A DNA stretch of 38,691 nt from Gemmatimonadota bacterium (GTDB taxonomy: Bacteria > Gemmatimonadota > Gemmatimonadetes > Gemmatimonadales > GWC2-71-9), in the NCBI GenBank assembly GCA_009692185.1, contig SHZT01000017.1, forward strand, positions 1-38,691. The letters run 5' to 3'. This document shows positions 4,095-27,124 of the stretch, piece after piece. Position 1 is the stretch's first letter, and every line of letters starts with the position of its first letter. The notes under the pieces are model-generated. The model was not told the origin of the DNA. It searched no databases and saw only the letters and a list, made by a program, of their open reading frames with translations. The position numbers were made by a program, and so were the translations under genes.

Positions 4095-4133
4095 GTTCCC
4101 CTCTCCCGAGAGGGAGAGGGGACAGGGGCGAGG
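4095..4133. repeat. 39-bp palindromic repeat, copy 1 (abuts tRNA-Ser)
   Basis: A palindrome CCCCTCTCCC (4098-4107) / GGGAGAGGGG (4112-4121) is followed by an asymmetric tail ACAGGGGCGAGG. It aligns over all 39 bases with copies at 4283-4321 and 8535-8573, differing at a few positions in the loop and tail. The tail runs 2 bases into the acceptor stem of tRNA-Ser. Confidence 0.85.
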
Positions 4134-4261: not shown

Positions 4262-5608
4262 ATGCCCATGAGCGAGTCGAACGTTCCCCTCTCCCGCCAG
4301 GGAGAGGGGTCAGGGGTGAGGCTCCGCTTCGCTCCGTCTCCGACGGGCTACCTCCACGTCGGGGGCGCGCGCACCGCGCTCTTCAACTGGCTCTACGCCC
4401 GCAGGGTGGGCGGGGCCTTCCTCCTCCGAATTGAAGACACCGACAAGGCCCGCTCCTCGGACGAGCACACCCAGGTCATCCTTGATGGCCTGACGTGGCT
4501 CGGCCTTGACTGGGATGAAGACGTGGTCTTCCAGGGCGCCCGCGTCGAGCGGCACCGCGACGTGGCCGACCAGCTCCTCGCCGCCGGGCACGCCTACGCC
4601 GAAGAGGGCGCCGTCCGGCTCCGCATGCCCCAGGGCGAGATCGCCTGGGATGACACGGTCCACGGGCCCATCAGCTTCCAGGGCGTGGACGTGAAGGACT
4701 GGATCATCCTGCGCTCAGATCGCACGCCGACCTACAACTTCTCGGTCGTCGTGGACGACATAGACATGAAGGTCACGCAGGTCATGCGGGGCGACGATCA
4801 CATCTCGAATACGCCGAAACAGATCGCGGTCTACCGCGCCCTCGGTGTTCCCCTCCCCGCGTTCGGCCACGTGCCAATGATCCACGGCATGGACGGGAAG
4901 AAACTGTCCAAGCGCCACGGCGCCACCGCCGTCGGTGACTATCAGCAGCTCGGCATCCTGCCCGCCGCCATGCGCAACTTCCTCGCGCTCCTGGGCTGGA
5001 GCCCGGGCGGCGACCGCGAGCTGTTCTATGACATCAAGGAAATGACCGAGGCGTTCACCCTGGAAGGAATCCAGCGCAAGGCCGCCATCTTCGACACGAA
5101 GAAGCTCGAGTGGATGAACGGCCAGCACCTGACACAGCTCGCGCCGGCGGAGCTGCTCCCGATCATCACCCCGATCCTCACATCGCAGGGCTTCGATCCA
5201 GCGGCGTACGACGGCGAACGGATTCTTCGCGCAATCCAGGTCGTCCGCGAACGTTCGCGCACGACACTCGAGGTTGCCCGCCAGGTGGCCGTGCGCCTGG
5301 GTAGCGGGGCGATCGAAAACGACCCCAAAGCGGCGGAAGCAATCGCCAAGGACCCGGCCGCCTTCAAGACTGCAACCGAATCCGCCGCGCGCAGGCTGGC
5401 CGGCGTTCCCGAGGACAAGTGGGAGCCGACGCAGCTTGAAGCCGAGCTCCGCGCCTTGGCCGAGTCGTTCGGGATCCCCGCCGGCAAGGTGTTCCAGCCA
5501 ATCCGGATCGCGCTCACCGGCGGCACGGTGTCGGAGCCTGTGCACGACCTGATATGGGCGGTCGGGAAAACCGAAACCCTCTCTCGTCTCAAGGCCGCGA
5601 CCGGTTAG
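4262..5608 (+). CDS. gltX: Glutamyl-tRNA synthetase
   Basis: This class I synthetase charges tRNA-Glu (and possibly tRNA-Gln, if non-discriminating) in the cytosol. The product has RFAPSPTGYLHVGGARTALF with the HIGH-type motif, the GluRS signature WxxLGLDWDEDV, and KKLSKRHGA as the KMSKS loop near residue 219. The C-terminal anticodon-binding domain fills the rest; 448 residues is near the family's usual 460-490. The N-terminus is odd: residues about 8-20 (PLSRQGEGSGVR) are encoded by a 39-bp palindromic repeat, and the native protein usually begins right at VR(L/V)RFAPSPTG. A GTG at 4316, preceded by the repeat's GGAGAGGGG, may be the real start. ATG 4262 and 4268 are alternatives. It stands between a tRNA and a YceI-like gene 9 bases downstream. 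Confidence 0.97.
   Translation: MPMSESNVPLSRQGEGSGVRLRFAPSPTGYLHVGGARTALFNWLYARRVGGAFLLRIEDTDKARSSDEHTQVILDGLTWLGLDWDEDVVFQGARVERHRDVADQLLAAGHAYAEEGAVRLRMPQGEIAWDDTVHGPISFQGVDVKDWIILRSDRTPTYNFSVVVDDIDMKVTQVMRGDDHISNTPKQIAVYRALGVPLPAFGHVPMIHGMDGKKLSKRHGATAVGDYQQLGILPAAMRNFLALLGWSPGGDRELFYDIKEMTEAFTLEGIQRKAAIFDTKKLEWMNGQHLTQLAPAELLPIITPILTSQGFDPAAYDGERILRAIQVVRERSRTTLEVARQVAVRLGSGAIENDPKAAEAIAKDPAAFKTATESAARRLAGVPEDKWEPTQLEAELRALAESFGIPAGKVFQPIRIALTGGTVSEPVHDLIWAVGKTETLSRLKAATG
4283..4321. repeat. 39-bp palindromic repeat, copy 2 (at the gltX 5' end)
   Basis: The arms CCCCTCTCCC and GGGAGAGGGG flank a 4-base loop (GCCA), followed by the tail TCAGGGGTGAGG. The tail contains a GTG in frame with gltX. 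The copy therefore either encodes 13 extra residues or supplies a ribosome site plus start codon. It matches copy 3 at 37 of 39 positions. Confidence 0.85.
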
Positions 5609-5617
5609 AGTTGTCCC

Positions 5618-6358
5618 ATGCGCTGGTTCAGCCGCACGCTCGTCCTTTGTTTCGTCCTGACCCGCCCCGCCATTGCCCAGTCCGAGCGCTGGGTGGTCGA
5701 CCCGGCGCTCAGCCTCGCGTGGTGGCAGATCAATCCCCACCTGAACCATCTGTGGGCTACTACCTGCCCCGGAGATCCCTCCTGGCGCCCGGGGGAAGAC
5801 CGCGGGGCCGGTTGGCTCGTTCCCGACCTCAAGACCCCCAGGGGGTACGCGGCGATCGCCGATACGGTGGTGCCGCTCCTCCCGCGAAAGTGGGCCCTGC
5901 CGCTTTGTGCGCGGGCCGTGCGCGGCGAAATCGCCACCTCGGACGCCAGTGGCTGGAAAGAGGTCCGCGGGCTGATCGTGCTCCGCCCCGACTCGCTGGT
6001 TACCGGGTTGGCCATGCGCGACGAATACGCGCGGAAGGCCGTGTATGAATCCGTGCGCTACCCCGACATCCGGTTCACCATCGACAGCCTGACCGACATC
6101 CAGCCGGGCGATACGTTGCGCGCCACCATCGTGGGGACATTCGAGTTCCGCGGCGTAAAGCGGGCGGCGACCGCTTCCGCGAAGGCGTGGCGGAACGCCG
6201 GCGGGCTTCGGGTCATGGCGCAGTTCACCGTGGTGCCCCGTGATCTCATCAATGTGTACGGAGTCTCCAGCGTGGCCCTTGGGCTGGGGGTGGGCGGCCA
6301 GGTCTGGAAGACATTGCATCTCGGCGTTGACGTGGTGCTCAAGCGGGAGGGTGCATGA
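5618..6358 (+). CDS. YceI-like periplasmic protein, paralogue 1
   Basis: The 246-residue protein has a signal peptide (residues 1-21, ending AIAQ) and a YceI-type fold recognisable from its C-terminal half: YARKAVYESVRYPDIRFTID, a GTFEFRGVKR strand and a closing LGLGVGGQVW. YceI proteins are secreted eight-stranded barrels that bind isoprenoid-like lipids. An N-terminal block absent from typical YceI carries WWQINPHLNHLW and TTCPGDPSWRPGE, and this block recurs in the paralogues at 25039 and 26336. Its Cys and a second one in PLCARAVRG are conserved in all three, suggesting a disulfide. It follows gltX by 9 bases and its stop overlaps the next start (ATGA). The ligand is unknown. Confidence 0.8.
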   Translation: MRWFSRTLVLCFVLTRPAIAQSERWVVDPALSLAWWQINPHLNHLWATTCPGDPSWRPGEDRGAGWLVPDLKTPRGYAAIADTVVPLLPRKWALPLCARAVRGEIATSDASGWKEVRGLIVLRPDSLVTGLAMRDEYARKAVYESVRYPDIRFTIDSLTDIQPGDTLRATIVGTFEFRGVKRAATASAKAWRNAGGLRVMAQFTVVPRDLINVYGVSSVALGLGVGGQVWKTLHLGVDVVLKREGA

Positions 6359-7599: not shown

Positions 7600-10161
7600 T
7601 TATCGAGCTGCACCGGCGACCCGTTGCGCAAAGAAATCTTCCGCCGCCGCGCGCACGCTGGCCCACGGCCCGATAACCTGGGTCGCAGGCGGCAGCGTTT
7701 CCAGCAATGTCCGGCCGTACGATTTGCTCACGATGCGATGATCCATCAATACGATGACACCATAGTCGGTTCGCGCCCGGATAAGGCGCCCAAAACCCTG
7801 CTTGAGCTTGAGCGCCGCGGTCGGCAGAAGATAGTCCCGGAACCCATTACCCCCCTCCGCCTCCAAACGTTCGAGCCGCGCCGCGGTCAGCGGCTCGTCC
7901 GGCACCTTGAACGGAAGCTTGGCGAGGATGAGCACCCGCAGGGCCTGGCCCGGTACGTCGACTCCCTCCCAGAAACTGTCCGTCCCGAAGAGAATCGCGT
8001 TGCCCGCTTCACGGAACCGCCGGAGCAGGCGGTCGCGCTGGCCCTCGCCCTGCACCAGCAGGGGCCACCGCCCTTCCCCCCCAGCATGACGCACGGCAGA
8101 GGAAATGCGTCGCAGCTGGCCGTGACTGGTAAACAGGACGAACATGCCGCCATCCGACGCGTTGGCCAGGTCCATGATCGCCTGCACCACCGCGCGGTCA
8201 TGGCCGAGTTCGTCGGTCCGGGCGTCCGGCAGGTCCGTCGGCACGCCGAACAGGCACTGTTCCGCGAAGTCGAACGGCGAAGCCAGGATCTGTTCGGTCC
8301 GCACCGGAGACGGCGTGAGGTTGAGCCCCAGACGGCCCCGGAGAAACCCGAAGTCACCGGCCGTTGCGAGGGTCGCGCTGGTCACCACGACGGTTTCGAT
8401 CCGGTCGAACAGCGACTCCTTGAGCACCCCCGCCAGGTTGAGCGGCACCGACGACAACCCGATCGGAAACGGCAACCCGCCTTGCGGCTTGGAGCCTTTC
8501 TTCTCGATCCATCGGACCGACTGTACGGGTGCGGGTCCCCCTCTCCCGTCAGGGAGAGGGGTCAGGGGTGAGGGTGCCGGTCGCAAGGTCAGCAGTACAC
8601 CGTCACACACCCCGGCCAGTCTCCGAACCACCGCGCGCATCTCGTTGAGGAGCTGGGAACGCGTGTCCTGGTCGTCGTCCAGCTCCATGCGATCCGCGAC
8701 CGTCTCGACGGCGTCCTGCAAACGCCGGAGCACGCCGACAAAGCCGTCAAGCGAGACATCCAGGCCGTCGGCCCAAATCGAATCGGCCGCGAACTCGTCC
8801 GTCAGGCGGAGGACGCCGTTTCGTTCGTGGAGTATCCGCGCTGCGAGGAGCCCGAACATGCGGTCGCCCCACTCCCGCGCCTTTCCCAAGTCCGGCAGGA
8901 GCCCTCGCCGCAGCAGCTCTACCGACGCCGCCGAGAGCATGTCGTCCCGCTGGGACAAGTCGGCGAGGAGCGTGGGCACCAGGCCCTTACCATTCCGCTC
9001 GAGCCGCGAGAGGAGCCGCGCTACGCCCCGGGACGACACGTTGGCGCCCAGGTGCTGGGCCGCCGTGTCCTCCAGGTGGTGCCCTTCGTCCAGCACCAGG
9101 CGCCGGTACGGCGGCAGGACCGCGGCGTCCTGCCAGTTCTCCTGCACCCGGCGGACCGCGAGGTCGGCCGCCAGCAAGTGGTGATTCACCACCACGATGT
9201 CGGCCTCCGCGGCCTTCCGCCGCGCCGCGAACACGAAGCACTCATCGAAATGCGGGCATTTGAGCCGGTTGCAGAGATCCGGCTCCGCGCTCACCTCGTC
9301 CCACACCTCGGGGCTCGGTACGTCCGCCAGGTCGGCGAGTGATCCGTCGTTCGTCTTCGCGGCCCACTGCGCGAGCGCGGTCAGCTCCGCCTGGCGCTCG
9401 GATTCGAGCAGTGACGTTTGCCCCCCGCCCGCCAGCGCGAGCCGGGCCAGGCACACGTAGTTCCGCCACCCCTTGAGCATCGCGAACGTCGGGACGCCGT
9501 GCTCGTCGTCAGCCAGCGCGCGCGCCAGCATGGGCAGGTCCTTGCCGACGAGTTGTTCCTGGAGATTGATGGTGTTGGTCGACACCACGGTGCGCTCGCC
9601 GTTCGCCCTGGCCCAGAGCACCGCCGGCACGAGATACGCAAACGACTTGCCCACGCCGGTGCCCGCTTCCAGCAGGGCAACCCCGCCTTCGTTGTAGGCA
9701 TCGGCGACGTAGGCCGCCATGTCACGCTGGCTGGGACGGTCCTCGTACTGGCCCAGCAGTGGCGCGATTGGTCCGTCGGCGCCGAGGAGCCGCGCGGCGT
9801 GCACCGGGTCGATCTGCTCCCCCTTCTGCGCCTGGGGAACCTCCACGACCACGTAGAGATCGGTGGCCGTGTTGTTGATGATGCCGAACCCGACGCCGCC
9901 GTCGTGCATGCGCGCCGCGACGGTCAAGTCCGCCTGGGAGGGCTCCAGCACGCCGCTGGGGTGATTGTGCAGCATCATCTCGCCCCGGCGCGCCACTCCC
10001 GGCAGGGCGAGGACCCGGTCCGATGTTCCCCGGGCCACCGGCCGGACTGACGCAATGGTCCCGTCCGGTTGGACATCGGCCACGAACGACACTTCACGCC
10101 CGCCCGCGAGCGCGATTTCGCTCGCCAGGCGGGCGCGTGCTTCGTCCGACAACCGGGTCAC
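7600..10161 (-). CDS. JAMM-domain / DinG-type ATP-dependent DNA helicase fusion
   Basis: The 853-residue protein joins two domains. Residues about 1-110 form a JAB/RadC-like fold with a complete JAMM motif, H65-x-H67-x7-S75-x2-D78, predicted to bind zinc. Residues about 140-853 are an XPD/DinG superfamily 2 helicase: Walker A EAGTGVGKS (165-173), four Cys for a 4Fe-4S cluster (one in YVCLARL, three in CNRLKCPHFDEC), VVNHHLL, the DEAH variant LDEGHH, and motif VI GFGRLIRARTDYG. DinG-like enzymes unwind 5'-3', removing R-loops or damaged structures. Residues about 530-542 are encoded by a 39-bp palindromic repeat that stays in frame. It starts at GTG, overlapping the upstream stop as GTGA. Confidence 0.9.
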   Translation of the reverse strand: MTRLSDEARARLASEIALAGGREVSFVADVQPDGTIASVRPVARGTSDRVLALPGVARRGEMMLHNHPSGVLEPSQADLTVAARMHDGGVGFGIINNTATDLYVVVEVPQAQKGEQIDPVHAARLLGADGPIAPLLGQYEDRPSQRDMAAYVADAYNEGGVALLEAGTGVGKSFAYLVPAVLWARANGERTVVSTNTINLQEQLVGKDLPMLARALADDEHGVPTFAMLKGWRNYVCLARLALAGGGQTSLLESERQAELTALAQWAAKTNDGSLADLADVPSPEVWDEVSAEPDLCNRLKCPHFDECFVFAARRKAAEADIVVVNHHLLAADLAVRRVQENWQDAAVLPPYRRLVLDEGHHLEDTAAQHLGANVSSRGVARLLSRLERNGKGLVPTLLADLSQRDDMLSAASVELLRRGLLPDLGKAREWGDRMFGLLAARILHERNGVLRLTDEFAADSIWADGLDVSLDGFVGVLRRLQDAVETVADRMELDDDQDTRSQLLNEMRAVVRRLAGVCDGVLLTLRPAPSPLTPLPDGRGGPAPVQSVRWIEKKGSKPQGGLPFPIGLSSVPLNLAGVLKESLFDRIETVVVTSATLATAGDFGFLRGRLGLNLTPSPVRTEQILASPFDFAEQCLFGVPTDLPDARTDELGHDRAVVQAIMDLANASDGGMFVLFTSHGQLRRISSAVRHAGGEGRWPLLVQGEGQRDRLLRRFREAGNAILFGTDSFWEGVDVPGQALRVLILAKLPFKVPDEPLTAARLERLEAEGGNGFRDYLLPTAALKLKQGFGRLIRARTDYGVIVLMDHRIVSKSYGRTLLETLPPATQVIGPWASVRAAAEDFFAQRVAGAAR
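8535..8573. repeat. 39-bp palindromic repeat, copy 3 (inside the helicase gene)
   Basis: This copy has the same arms, CCCCTCTCCC and GGGAGAGGGG, with loop GTCA and tail TCAGGGGTGAGG. It is read on the minus strand as SPLTPLPDGRGG within the helicase, in a Pro/Gly-rich segment between the recognisable motor motifs. Being 39 bases long, it adds 13 codons without a frameshift. Confidence 0.9.
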
Positions 10162-11468
10162 GTCTTGAGTTCGCGCTTCTTGGCGGCGGGGAACAGCACG
10201 TTGTTGAGGATGAGCCGGTAGCCCGGTGACTGCGGATGCAGCGTGAGATCGGTGGCCGGGTCACCCACCTGGTGCTGGGGATCTTCCGGATCGTGGCCGC
10301 CGAGGAACGTCCAGGTGCCCTTCCCGTAGTCGCCATGGATGTACTTGACCCACGGCGCGCCGGGCTCGTCCGCGAGCACCGTGACGCCCGGCTTCAGGCG
10401 ACTCTGGATGAACGACGTCGTGAGGCCGTAGAAGTCCGGAATGATCTGCCGGTGGCACTGCACCAGCATGGCGGGCACCGGGTCGATCTTGGCGGAAAAG
10501 TTGAACAGCTTGAACGCGCCCAGCTGCTGCCGGAGCGGCGTGTTGTTCACCTGGTGGCCGTCAATGTCGGAGAAGCTCGCGATCGCCGGCGACAGCTCGA
10601 GGTGGCCGTTCTGGAACGCCATGGTGCGGTCCCAGCGAAGCTTGGCGTTGGCCGCGGCATCGGGCGGCGTGCCGTCCGCGTACGCCGCCGCAACGTCCAC
10701 GCCCTCCGCCGCCAGCGCGATTTCCAGCGTCTCCGTGGCCGTGCACATGGCAAACAGGAACCCGCCATTCTCCACGAATGTCCGGATCCGCCGAGCCACC
10801 TGCTTCTTGAGCTCGGCCACGTTCGCGAAACCCCACTGCTTGGCCATCTGCGTGTTCCGCTGAACCGCGTCCGCCAGCCACGGGGACCCGCTGTAGGTCA
10901 GGTAGAACTTCGAATACTGCCCCGTGAAGTCCTCATGATGTAGGTGCAGCCATTCGTAGTTCTTGAGCTGCCCGCCCAGTACTTCGGCATCCCACAGCTT
11001 GTCGTGCTCGATGTCGGCGTAGGCCAGCGCGATGCGCACCGCGTCATCCCACGGCTGGGCGCTCGGTGACTGGTAAACGGCCACCTTGGGGGCCTTCTCC
11101 AGCGGAATCGCCTCCATGTTGCCCGAGGCGATCTGGCCCCGTATGTCCAGCACGTCAGAGTCAGTCAGGAACTGCGCTGACACGCCGACCAGGGCAGCAT
11201 CCCGCTCCGTCCGGGCGTCGCGTTCGAGTAGAAAACTGCCGGCCCGGTAGTTGAGCAGCCATTCCGTCTTCCAGCCGGCCTTGAGCGACCGGAAAATCAC
11301 GCCGTAGGCCTTGAGCTGCTGCGGCTGGGAGGCGTCCATGGGGATCAGCATCCAGCCGGCCATGGAGTCGTCGCGCCCAAGGCGAATGAGTCCGCCGCCG
11401 CCCGCCCCTTTCCGCCCGAGGCCGACCACGCCCCCCGCGACCGCGGCAAGAAAATCCCGTCGTTTCAT
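10158..11468 (-). CDS. Tat-exported GATase/ThuA-like protein
   Basis: The 436-residue protein begins MKRRDFL, a twin-arginine signal, so it is probably exported folded. The central region has RTFVENGGFLFAMC, which resembles the FIENGGFL step of the DUF4159 protein in the same operon and of class I glutamine-amidotransferase-like (ThuA-type) folds. The C-terminal part has VKYIHGDYGKGTWTFLGGHDPEDP. From memory, relatives are sometimes labelled asparagine synthetase B, but no N-terminal Cys nucleophile or ATP-pyrophosphatase loop is visible, so that name should not be taken literally. It starts 4 bases after the TPR gene and overlaps the helicase start by GTGA. Confidence 0.6.
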   Translation of the reverse strand: MKRRDFLAAVAGGVVGLGRKGAGGGGLIRLGRDDSMAGWMLIPMDASQPQQLKAYGVIFRSLKAGWKTEWLLNYRAGSFLLERDARTERDAALVGVSAQFLTDSDVLDIRGQIASGNMEAIPLEKAPKVAVYQSPSAQPWDDAVRIALAYADIEHDKLWDAEVLGGQLKNYEWLHLHHEDFTGQYSKFYLTYSGSPWLADAVQRNTQMAKQWGFANVAELKKQVARRIRTFVENGGFLFAMCTATETLEIALAAEGVDVAAAYADGTPPDAAANAKLRWDRTMAFQNGHLELSPAIASFSDIDGHQVNNTPLRQQLGAFKLFNFSAKIDPVPAMLVQCHRQIIPDFYGLTTSFIQSRLKPGVTVLADEPGAPWVKYIHGDYGKGTWTFLGGHDPEDPQHQVGDPATDLTLHPQSPGYRLILNNVLFPAAKKRELKT

Positions 11469-25038: not shown

Positions 25039-25821
25039 ATGGTCGGTCAGCAGTCAAACACGTCGCGATGGTTCCGGACTGCCCAGGCGATCATTCTCGC
25101 ACTGGCAGTACTCGCACCCGCGACGGTTCGAGCGCAGGATGTGAAGTTCAAGGTTGAGGAGCGCTCGAGCCTGGCCTGGTGGCAAATGAGCCCGCACCTC
25201 CTGCACCTTTGGGCAACCACGTGTCCCGGGGACCCGTCCTGGCAGCCGGGCGCCGAACGCAGCTCCGGGTGGGTGGTTGACGACAGCAAGTATCCCTCCA
25301 CGGGACACTCGAACACGATCGACACCATCCACGTGCCACTCTACCCGCGGCCTGTGGCGCAGGCCATCTGCACGCCCGCCGTCCGTGGCGAATTCACCGT
25401 GCGCGACACGGTACGTTGGACCGGCGTCAAGGGCATGGTCGCCATCCGCGTCGAGCACCTGATTACCGGCCTCGACATGCGTGATAACTACGCCCGCAAG
25501 GCCGTCCTCCAGACGTCCGCCTATCCCGAAGTGAAGTTCCAGGTGGACAGCATGATCAACCAGCGGAAGTCGGGCGATACGACAATCGCCGATCTGTTCG
25601 GTATTTTTGAAATGCGCGGGGTCCGCGTGCCCAAGAAGATCCGCGCTTACTTCTGGCAAGAGCCGCTGGGCCTGCGCGTGACAGCGAAGTTCAAGTTCCC
25701 CGGGACCGACCTCCCCGAGGTCTACAAGATGTCGCGGCTGTCCCTGGGCCTCGGCGTCGGCACCGGTCTGTGGAAGATTGTTCACCTGGGCATCGACGCA
25801 ATCCTCACACCCGGGTCCTGA
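25039..25821 (+). CDS. YceI-like periplasmic protein, paralogue 2
   Basis: The 260-residue protein starts at ATG 25039 with GGAGGAA 7 bases upstream. It has a signal peptide (about residues 1-32, ending VRAQ). The same added N-terminal block as paralogues 1 and 3 is present (SSLAWWQMSPHLLHLW, TTCPGDPSWQPG), then the YceI-like core with LDMRDNYARKAVLQTSAYPE and LGLGVGTGLWKIVHLGIDAIL. The two conserved Cys (in TTCPGD and AICTPAVRG) are present. It is 31 bases before a small lipoprotein gene and 514 bases before paralogue 3. It probably binds a lipid or quinone-like molecule, by analogy with YceI only. Confidence 0.8.
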   Translation: MVGQQSNTSRWFRTAQAIILALAVLAPATVRAQDVKFKVEERSSLAWWQMSPHLLHLWATTCPGDPSWQPGAERSSGWVVDDSKYPSTGHSNTIDTIHVPLYPRPVAQAICTPAVRGEFTVRDTVRWTGVKGMVAIRVEHLITGLDMRDNYARKAVLQTSAYPEVKFQVDSMINQRKSGDTTIADLFGIFEMRGVRVPKKIRAYFWQEPLGLRVTAKFKFPGTDLPEVYKMSRLSLGLGVGTGLWKIVHLGIDAILTPGS

Positions 25822-26335: not shown

Positions 26336-27124
26336 ATGAAGGTCACCGTACGAACCTATCTTCTAGCGGGCCTGGTAGCGGCCGGCATGACGGTATCGGG
26401 CGTCGCGCAGGCCCAGCAACCTGTTCGCCTCACGATCGACTCCAAGTCGAGCCTGGCGTGGTGGCAGGTCAACCCGCACATGGAACACCTTTGGGCCACG
26501 ACGTGCGCACAAGACCCTTCCTGGCGTCCGGGTGAAGGTGCCAGCTCGGGGTGGGCGACCGACTTTCTCTCCAAGGGGATGGCCACGGGACATTCATCCA
26601 AGCTGGTAGACAGCTCCTCGATCCCGCTCTACCCGAGACGGCGCGTGCGCCCCCTCTGCAACGAGGCGGTCTCCGGAGACGTCACCATTGACACCCTGAA
26701 TTGGTCCACTGCACGCGGCACCGTGACCGTGAAAGCAGACCAGCTTACCACGGGCACGGACATGCGGGACAACTACGCCAAGAAGAGCATCCTCACGACG
26801 AGCAACTATCCGGACATCAAGTTCACCATCGACAGCCTGGGTCCCATGACAAAGAAGGTCTCCGTCAAGGGCGACACGCTGCGTGGAGATGTCTTTGGCA
26901 CGTTTGAGTTGCGAGGGGTGAAGCATCCCATGAAGGCCAGCGCCCGGACGACGCACGAGGCGGGTGGCCTTCGGGTCCGGGCCAAGTTCATGATGGGCAC
27001 AAGGGACATGGTCGAGGTCTACAACATGTCCAAGGTTTCGCTCGGCCTGGGCGTCGTGCAGTCGATCTGGGAAGAACTCTGGATGGGGGTCGATGTGCTG
27101 CTGAAGGTGCCGGGGACCCCGTAG
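26336..27124 (+). CDS. YceI-like periplasmic protein, paralogue 3
   Basis: The 262-residue protein starts at ATG 26336 behind AGGAGGATCGCA, a strong ribosome site. It has a signal peptide (about residues 1-26, VAQAQ). It shares with the other two the block SSLAWWQVNPHMEHLW, TTCAQDPSWRPGEG and the second Cys in PLCNEAVSG. The core has TDMRDNYAKKSILTTSNYPD, FGTFELRGVKHPMKASA and VSLGLGVVQSIW. Paralogue 1 (5618) is closer in its core (IKFTIDSL versus IRFTIDSL) than paralogue 2. A strong terminator follows at 27153. Confidence 0.82.
   Translation: MKVTVRTYLLAGLVAAGMTVSGVAQAQQPVRLTIDSKSSLAWWQVNPHMEHLWATTCAQDPSWRPGEGASSGWATDFLSKGMATGHSSKLVDSSSIPLYPRRRVRPLCNEAVSGDVTIDTLNWSTARGTVTVKADQLTTGTDMRDNYAKKSILTTSNYPDIKFTIDSLGPMTKKVSVKGDTLRGDVFGTFELRGVKHPMKASARTTHEAGGLRVRAKFMMGTRDMVEVYNMSKVSLGLGVVQSIWEELWMGVDVLLKVPGTP

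Follow-up and report, generated by a model that had tools for sequence, protein, structure and literature searches.

RadC-like DinG and related proteins

In 2017 Aravind's group listed fusions in which RadC/JAB domains are joined to DinG/RAD3 helicases and suggested a role as nucleases, arguing that RadC-type JABs are without a ubiquitin-tail groove and may be nucleases; the JAB domains characterised so far are peptidases (PMC5512222). Cheng (2025) gave the RadC-like DinG subgroup its name and modelled its Desulfuromonas soudanensis member, in which a RadC-like domain with an E/H/H/D site precedes a YoaA-like motor in a genome without HolC, obtained metalloproteases and zero nucleases in a DALI search, and noted no reported research on RadC-like DinG (PMC11981726). 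The main text of that study mentions neither Fusobacteria nor Gemmatimonadota. In animals the 5'-to-3' helicase FANCJ unfolds crosslinked proteins, a step that probably precedes the action of SPRTN (PMC10175854).

The protein described here, from a Gemmatimonadota genome, is encoded in the window, by which we mean the whole 38,691-nucleotide stretch of DNA that was analysed, and is a further member of RadC-like DinG, a fusion already in print. New here are the co-evolution of JAB and motor, secondary losses of the JAB, catalytic decay in one Gemmatimonadota genus and a dead JAB in Fusobacterium.

An N-terminal JAMM domain on a YoaA/DinG-type helicase

The open reading frame at 7600-10161 of the (-) strand is intact, with zero internal stops, and encodes the following parts.

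7600..10161, (-) strand: whole RadC-like DinG gene, 853 aa, GTG start, stop codon within the coordinates
9841..10161, (-) strand: JAMM/RadC-like (JAB) domain, residues 1-107, from the AlphaFold2 fold and PF04002
10093..10095, (-) strand: E23, predicted catalytic glutamate of the JAMM site, invariant in 104/104 homologues, pairing with E25 of RadC 2qlc
9928..9969, (-) strand: H65-x-H67-x7-S75-x2-D78, predicted zinc site, invariant in 104/104
9745..9840, (-) strand: linker, residues 108-139, one helix from 119, part retained in JAB-less members
7603..9744, (-) strand: Fe-S SF2 helicase module of XPD/DinG/YoaA type, residues 140-853
9643..9666, (-) strand: Walker A AGTGVGKS, residues 166-173
9238..9453, (-) strand: Fe-S cluster cysteines C237/C297/C302/C308, each in at least 105 of 106 homologues
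9079..9090, (-) strand: motif II DEGH, residues 358-361
7777..7800, (-) strand: motif VI QGFGRLIR, residues 788-795

An H-x-H-x7-S-x2-D zinc motif had been claimed for the N-terminus in a preliminary description, and it is there exactly as claimed, reading H65-N-H67-x7-S75-x2-D78 (residues 65-78). A chance motif was rejected, given that HxHx7Sx2D arose anywhere in only 0.1% of 100,000 shuffled copies of the protein and is invariant in 104 homologues. Pfam RadC (PF04002) covers residues 62-94 above its curated cut-off and matches 80 of 80 JAB sequences scanned. The same description would have fallen had structure prediction given no JAB fold within residues 1-110; instead, AlphaFold2 placed a JAMM fold at residues 1-107, and residues 1-135 modelled alone (pLDDT 88) had RadC 2qlc as their top Foldseek match. 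In VIA-align, Rpn11 (Z 9.7, rmsd 2.8, 102 aligned), the bacterial BubCD (Z 9.5, rmsd 3.0, 109 aligned), PfJAMM1 (Z 8.7, rmsd 3.1, 101 aligned) and RadC 2qlc (Z 8.2, rmsd 3.4, 100 aligned) were recovered, in each case over about residues 1-107, values at most 1 Z apart counting as ties, so that the comparison supports a JAMM fold and gives no ranking inside JAMM. The high-Z matches listed belong to the JAMM/MPN proteins and include the peptidases Rpn11, CSN5, BRCC36 and PfJAMM1. The domain has the combination that marks JAMM/MPN+ proteins, a (predicted) JAMM fold with the glutamate and HxHx7Sx2D, and we infer that it binds zinc and is catalytic.

The claim that the remainder is an Fe-S SF2 helicase with all motor motifs was likewise borne out: besides the four cysteines and the motifs from Walker A to motif VI, the module has TSATL at 594-598 and motif V at 725-735, which completes the motor set, and matches Helicase_C_2 of Pfam with 160 bits. 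E23 and cysteines C237/C297/C302/C308 are our additions to that earlier reading. In NCBIfam the motor is nearest to YoaA and DinG, under the cut-offs of both, the top match being YoaA NF053712 at 555 bits against a curated equivalog cut-off of 680. The full-length AlphaFold2 model, built from 90 aligned sequences, had a mean pLDDT of 91.8 and a pTM of 0.89, and in Foldseek E. coli DinG with ssDNA ranked first. The protein is confirmed as a RadC-like DinG, a YoaA/DinG-type Fe-S helicase with an N-terminal JAMM domain whose predicted site is intact; by analogy with its family, the motor may run 5'-to-3'.

Like RadC-like DinG as defined by Cheng, the protein has a JAMM domain directly before the motor, the E/H/H/D site and an Fe-S core, and HolC (PF04364) was not found in its 99.9% complete genome; the window copy differs in belonging to a Gemmatimonadota lineage and in having an in-frame repeat element. 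With YoaA (NF053712) it shares the Fe-S helicase, but it has a JAB and its genome is without the HolC partner. In ExoDinG (Staphylococcus/Bacillus DinG) an enzyme domain also stands ahead of the DinG motor, and the preliminary description was correct that in Bacillus this is a 3'-5' exonuclease domain (PMC11981726), whereas here it is a JAMM domain. Canonical RadC (UPF0758) shares the RadC-type JAB and the HNHPSG motif, but its HhH N-terminus is absent from the fused JAB, as are, in the alignment, its VHPREVF helix and DHxIxG tail; PF04002 was found only at residues 62-94 and UPF0758_N not at all. An ordinary stand-alone RadC is encoded separately in the source genome, and the fused JAB is therefore not a displaced RadC. 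The fusion protein is the sole match of its kind in this 2.63-Mb genome.

Conservation and co-inheritance of JAB and motor

The five residues E23, H65, H67, S75 and D78 are identical in all 104 site-covering homologues of the 106 aligned, the 104 coming from Gemmatimonadota, Desulfuromonadales, KSB1 and Calditrichota. JABs share 50.2% identity on average and motors 50.5%, and pairwise distances in the two parts are correlated with a Mantel r of 0.95 (permutation maximum 0.06 in 999 permutations). Equal mean identity and this correlation show that JAB and motor were inherited as one unit and evolve as such.

Distribution, loss and decay of the JAB

The protein was matched in 257 of 295 Gemmatimonadota genomes, and the best 80 loci outside the phylum are mainly in Desulfuromonadales, KSB1 and Calditrichota. 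A JAMM-first DinG had been called unusual, which is half right: the arrangement is that of a published subgroup (PMC11981726, PMC5512222), and most Gemmatimonadota genomes hold a homologue. A chimera or assembly artefact of the metagenome-assembled genome was rejected, both from the presence of the same architecture in the isolates Desulfuromusa kysingii DSM 7343 and Malonomonas rubra DSM 5091 and from its presence in most relatives searched.

In family f2, genera g39, g43 and g46 have no JAB and keep the motor and part of the linker; a relocated JAB was sought in 11 JAB-less f2 genomes and none was found, each having ordinary RadC only. Genus g81 (family f5) has a different, helical N-terminus in the JAB position. 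In one of its members (L153, genome G098) this unrelated, helical-looking region apparently consists of two similar repeats. In the tree, from which the Walker A filter removed three of the four intended outgroups, JAB-less members nest among JAB-bearing relatives, and the losses are therefore secondary.

Genus g88 retains a JAB with a degraded site, the glutamate being replaced by S or R, HNH by ISH or LSQ, and D by E, and these dead domains are the most diverged as well. The g88 loci with decayed JABs (L146, L147, L156 and L159) have an otherwise full-length DinG and lie in two 2.0-Mb genomes, in neither of which was canonical RadC detected. A homologue in Fusobacterium vincentii has a JAB-derived N-terminus without catalytic residues (hhalign E 2.7e-6, 129 columns), and in the tree long branches meet at its placement. 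This DinG-like helicase lies at L121:3980-6448 of NZ_CP084075.1, a 2.1-Mb record labelled plasmid that is probably a chromosome. Among the plasmid and phage matches listed, only one Fusobacterium record spans the JAB region, and a mobile-element origin was rejected.

Some lineages, as the dead and lost JABs show, can do without the predicted JAB activity, which suggests that the motor is able to work in its absence; these lineages are natural controls.

Possible roles of the JAMM site

The preliminary description offered a nuclease, a peptidase or a DNA-end sensor, and all three are still candidates. As a tentative reading, with a probability of about 0.38, we propose that the motor displaces or unfolds a DNA-bound protein and the tethered JAMM site cleaves that protein. 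The motor would track along ssDNA at stalled or damaged forks and there displace or unfold a protein tightly bound or crosslinked to DNA, in which the tethered site may then cut a peptide or isopeptide bond. The whole might be a one-polypeptide analogue of crosslink removal in animals by FANCJ, as unfolding helicase, and SPRTN, as metalloprotease. FANCJ is, like the motor here, a helicase of the XPD-like Fe-S class. SPRTN falls outside the JAMM enzymes, and the animal system, made of two proteins, is alike only in how it would work on DNA-protein crosslinks. We favour peptidase action because the high-Z neighbours include JAMM peptidases, the characterised JABs are peptidases and FANCJ unfolds crosslinked proteins. 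It is consistent with the invariance of the E/H/H/S/D set across several phyla despite ~50% mean JAB identity, with a complete motor whose nearest structure is ssDNA-bound E. coli DinG, and with the Mantel r of 0.95. Against it stand the loss of the JAB in several genera and of catalytic residues in others, the argument that RadC-type JABs have no ubiquitin-tail groove and may be nucleases (PMC5512222), and the failure to find a Pup gene in this genome; gene context held nothing pointing to proteolysis or crosslink repair. If the site is a peptidase, the protein would be a bacterial helicase-protease fusion clearing proteins from DNA. The more specific idea of bacterial DNA-protein crosslink repair by one polypeptide, its XPD-type motor unfolding the crosslinked protein and feeding its own JAMM peptidase, appears unlikely.

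Rather unlikely, in our judgement, is that the JAMM domain acts as a metal-dependent nuclease or nucleotide-end processor that cuts the strand exposed by the motor, in place of the exonuclease of ExoDinG or the endonuclease of EndoDinG. We know of no JAMM nuclease, and a nuclease here would be the first known to us and would largely settle the long-open role of RadC-type domains. Such activity was proposed by Aravind's group from RadC fusions (PMC5512222), other DinG subgroups have known or predicted nucleases at the same N-terminal position (PMC11981726), and a helix-hairpin-helix, a typical DNA-contacting element, forms the N-terminus of canonical RadC; however, the structural matches listed at high Z are JAMM/MPN proteins, and Cheng's DALI search gave metalloproteases and no nucleases (PMC11981726).

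We also think it unlikely that the main task of the JAB is docking the helicase to a partner (a replisome part, SSB or RadC), its metal site serving shape or binding and not catalysis. The retention of catalytically dead JABs in genus g88 and in Fusobacterium would fit docking, as would the failure to find HolC, which partners YoaA in E. coli, in the source genome, where another docking device may be needed. Invariance of five site residues in 104/104 nevertheless exceeds what docking alone would lead one to expect, and in g88 the dead domains show the greatest divergence too, as decay predicts.

We consider it very improbable that DNA-bound proteins are the substrates from which the site trims or removes a small ubiquitin-like modifier or sulphur-carrier tail. 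That would be classical JAMM chemistry, and BubCD, a structural match at Z 9.5, comes from a bacterial ubiquitination-like operon; but no Pup, the only modifier system sought, was found in the genome, and a tail groove is reported to be unlikely in the RadC clade (PMC5512222).

Genomic context

The gene upstream overlaps the helicase gene by four bases and is kept beside RadC-like DinG in 41 Gemmatimonadota loci.

10158..11468, (-) strand: upstream gene, no Pfam family, 4-base overlap with the helicase gene

In 11 Desulfuromonadales loci (L054, L065, L071, L076, L082, L083, L084, L089, L105, L107 and L110) the helicase gene is followed downstream, on its own strand, by a canonical radC. For a functional link to RadC this is weak evidence because 45 other loci with sufficient downstream sequence have no downstream RadC and the sampled carriers form one clade. 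An anti-phage or CRISPR helicase was set aside: the strong PADLOC matches come from the helicase part and are to type IV DinG models, and of four neighbours tested none is a convincing defence gene. Elsewhere, the window encodes three proteins with YceI-like domains (5618-6358, 25039-25821 and 26336-27124).

An in-frame repeat element

The helicase module contains extra residues that most of the homologues shown are without.

8512..8589, (-) strand: extra residues within 525-550, in-frame repeat palindrome at 8539-8560

The model has a pLDDT of 59 at residues 531-540, and the extra residues probably lie outside the protein's function. The palindromic repeat, CCCTCTCCC-n-GGGAGAGGG, occurs at 23 places in the genome, with copies in the window at 8539-8560, 4099-4120 and 4287-4308. 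One copy is inside the helicase gene, one in the first codons of the gltX open reading frame and one adjoins tRNA-Ser.
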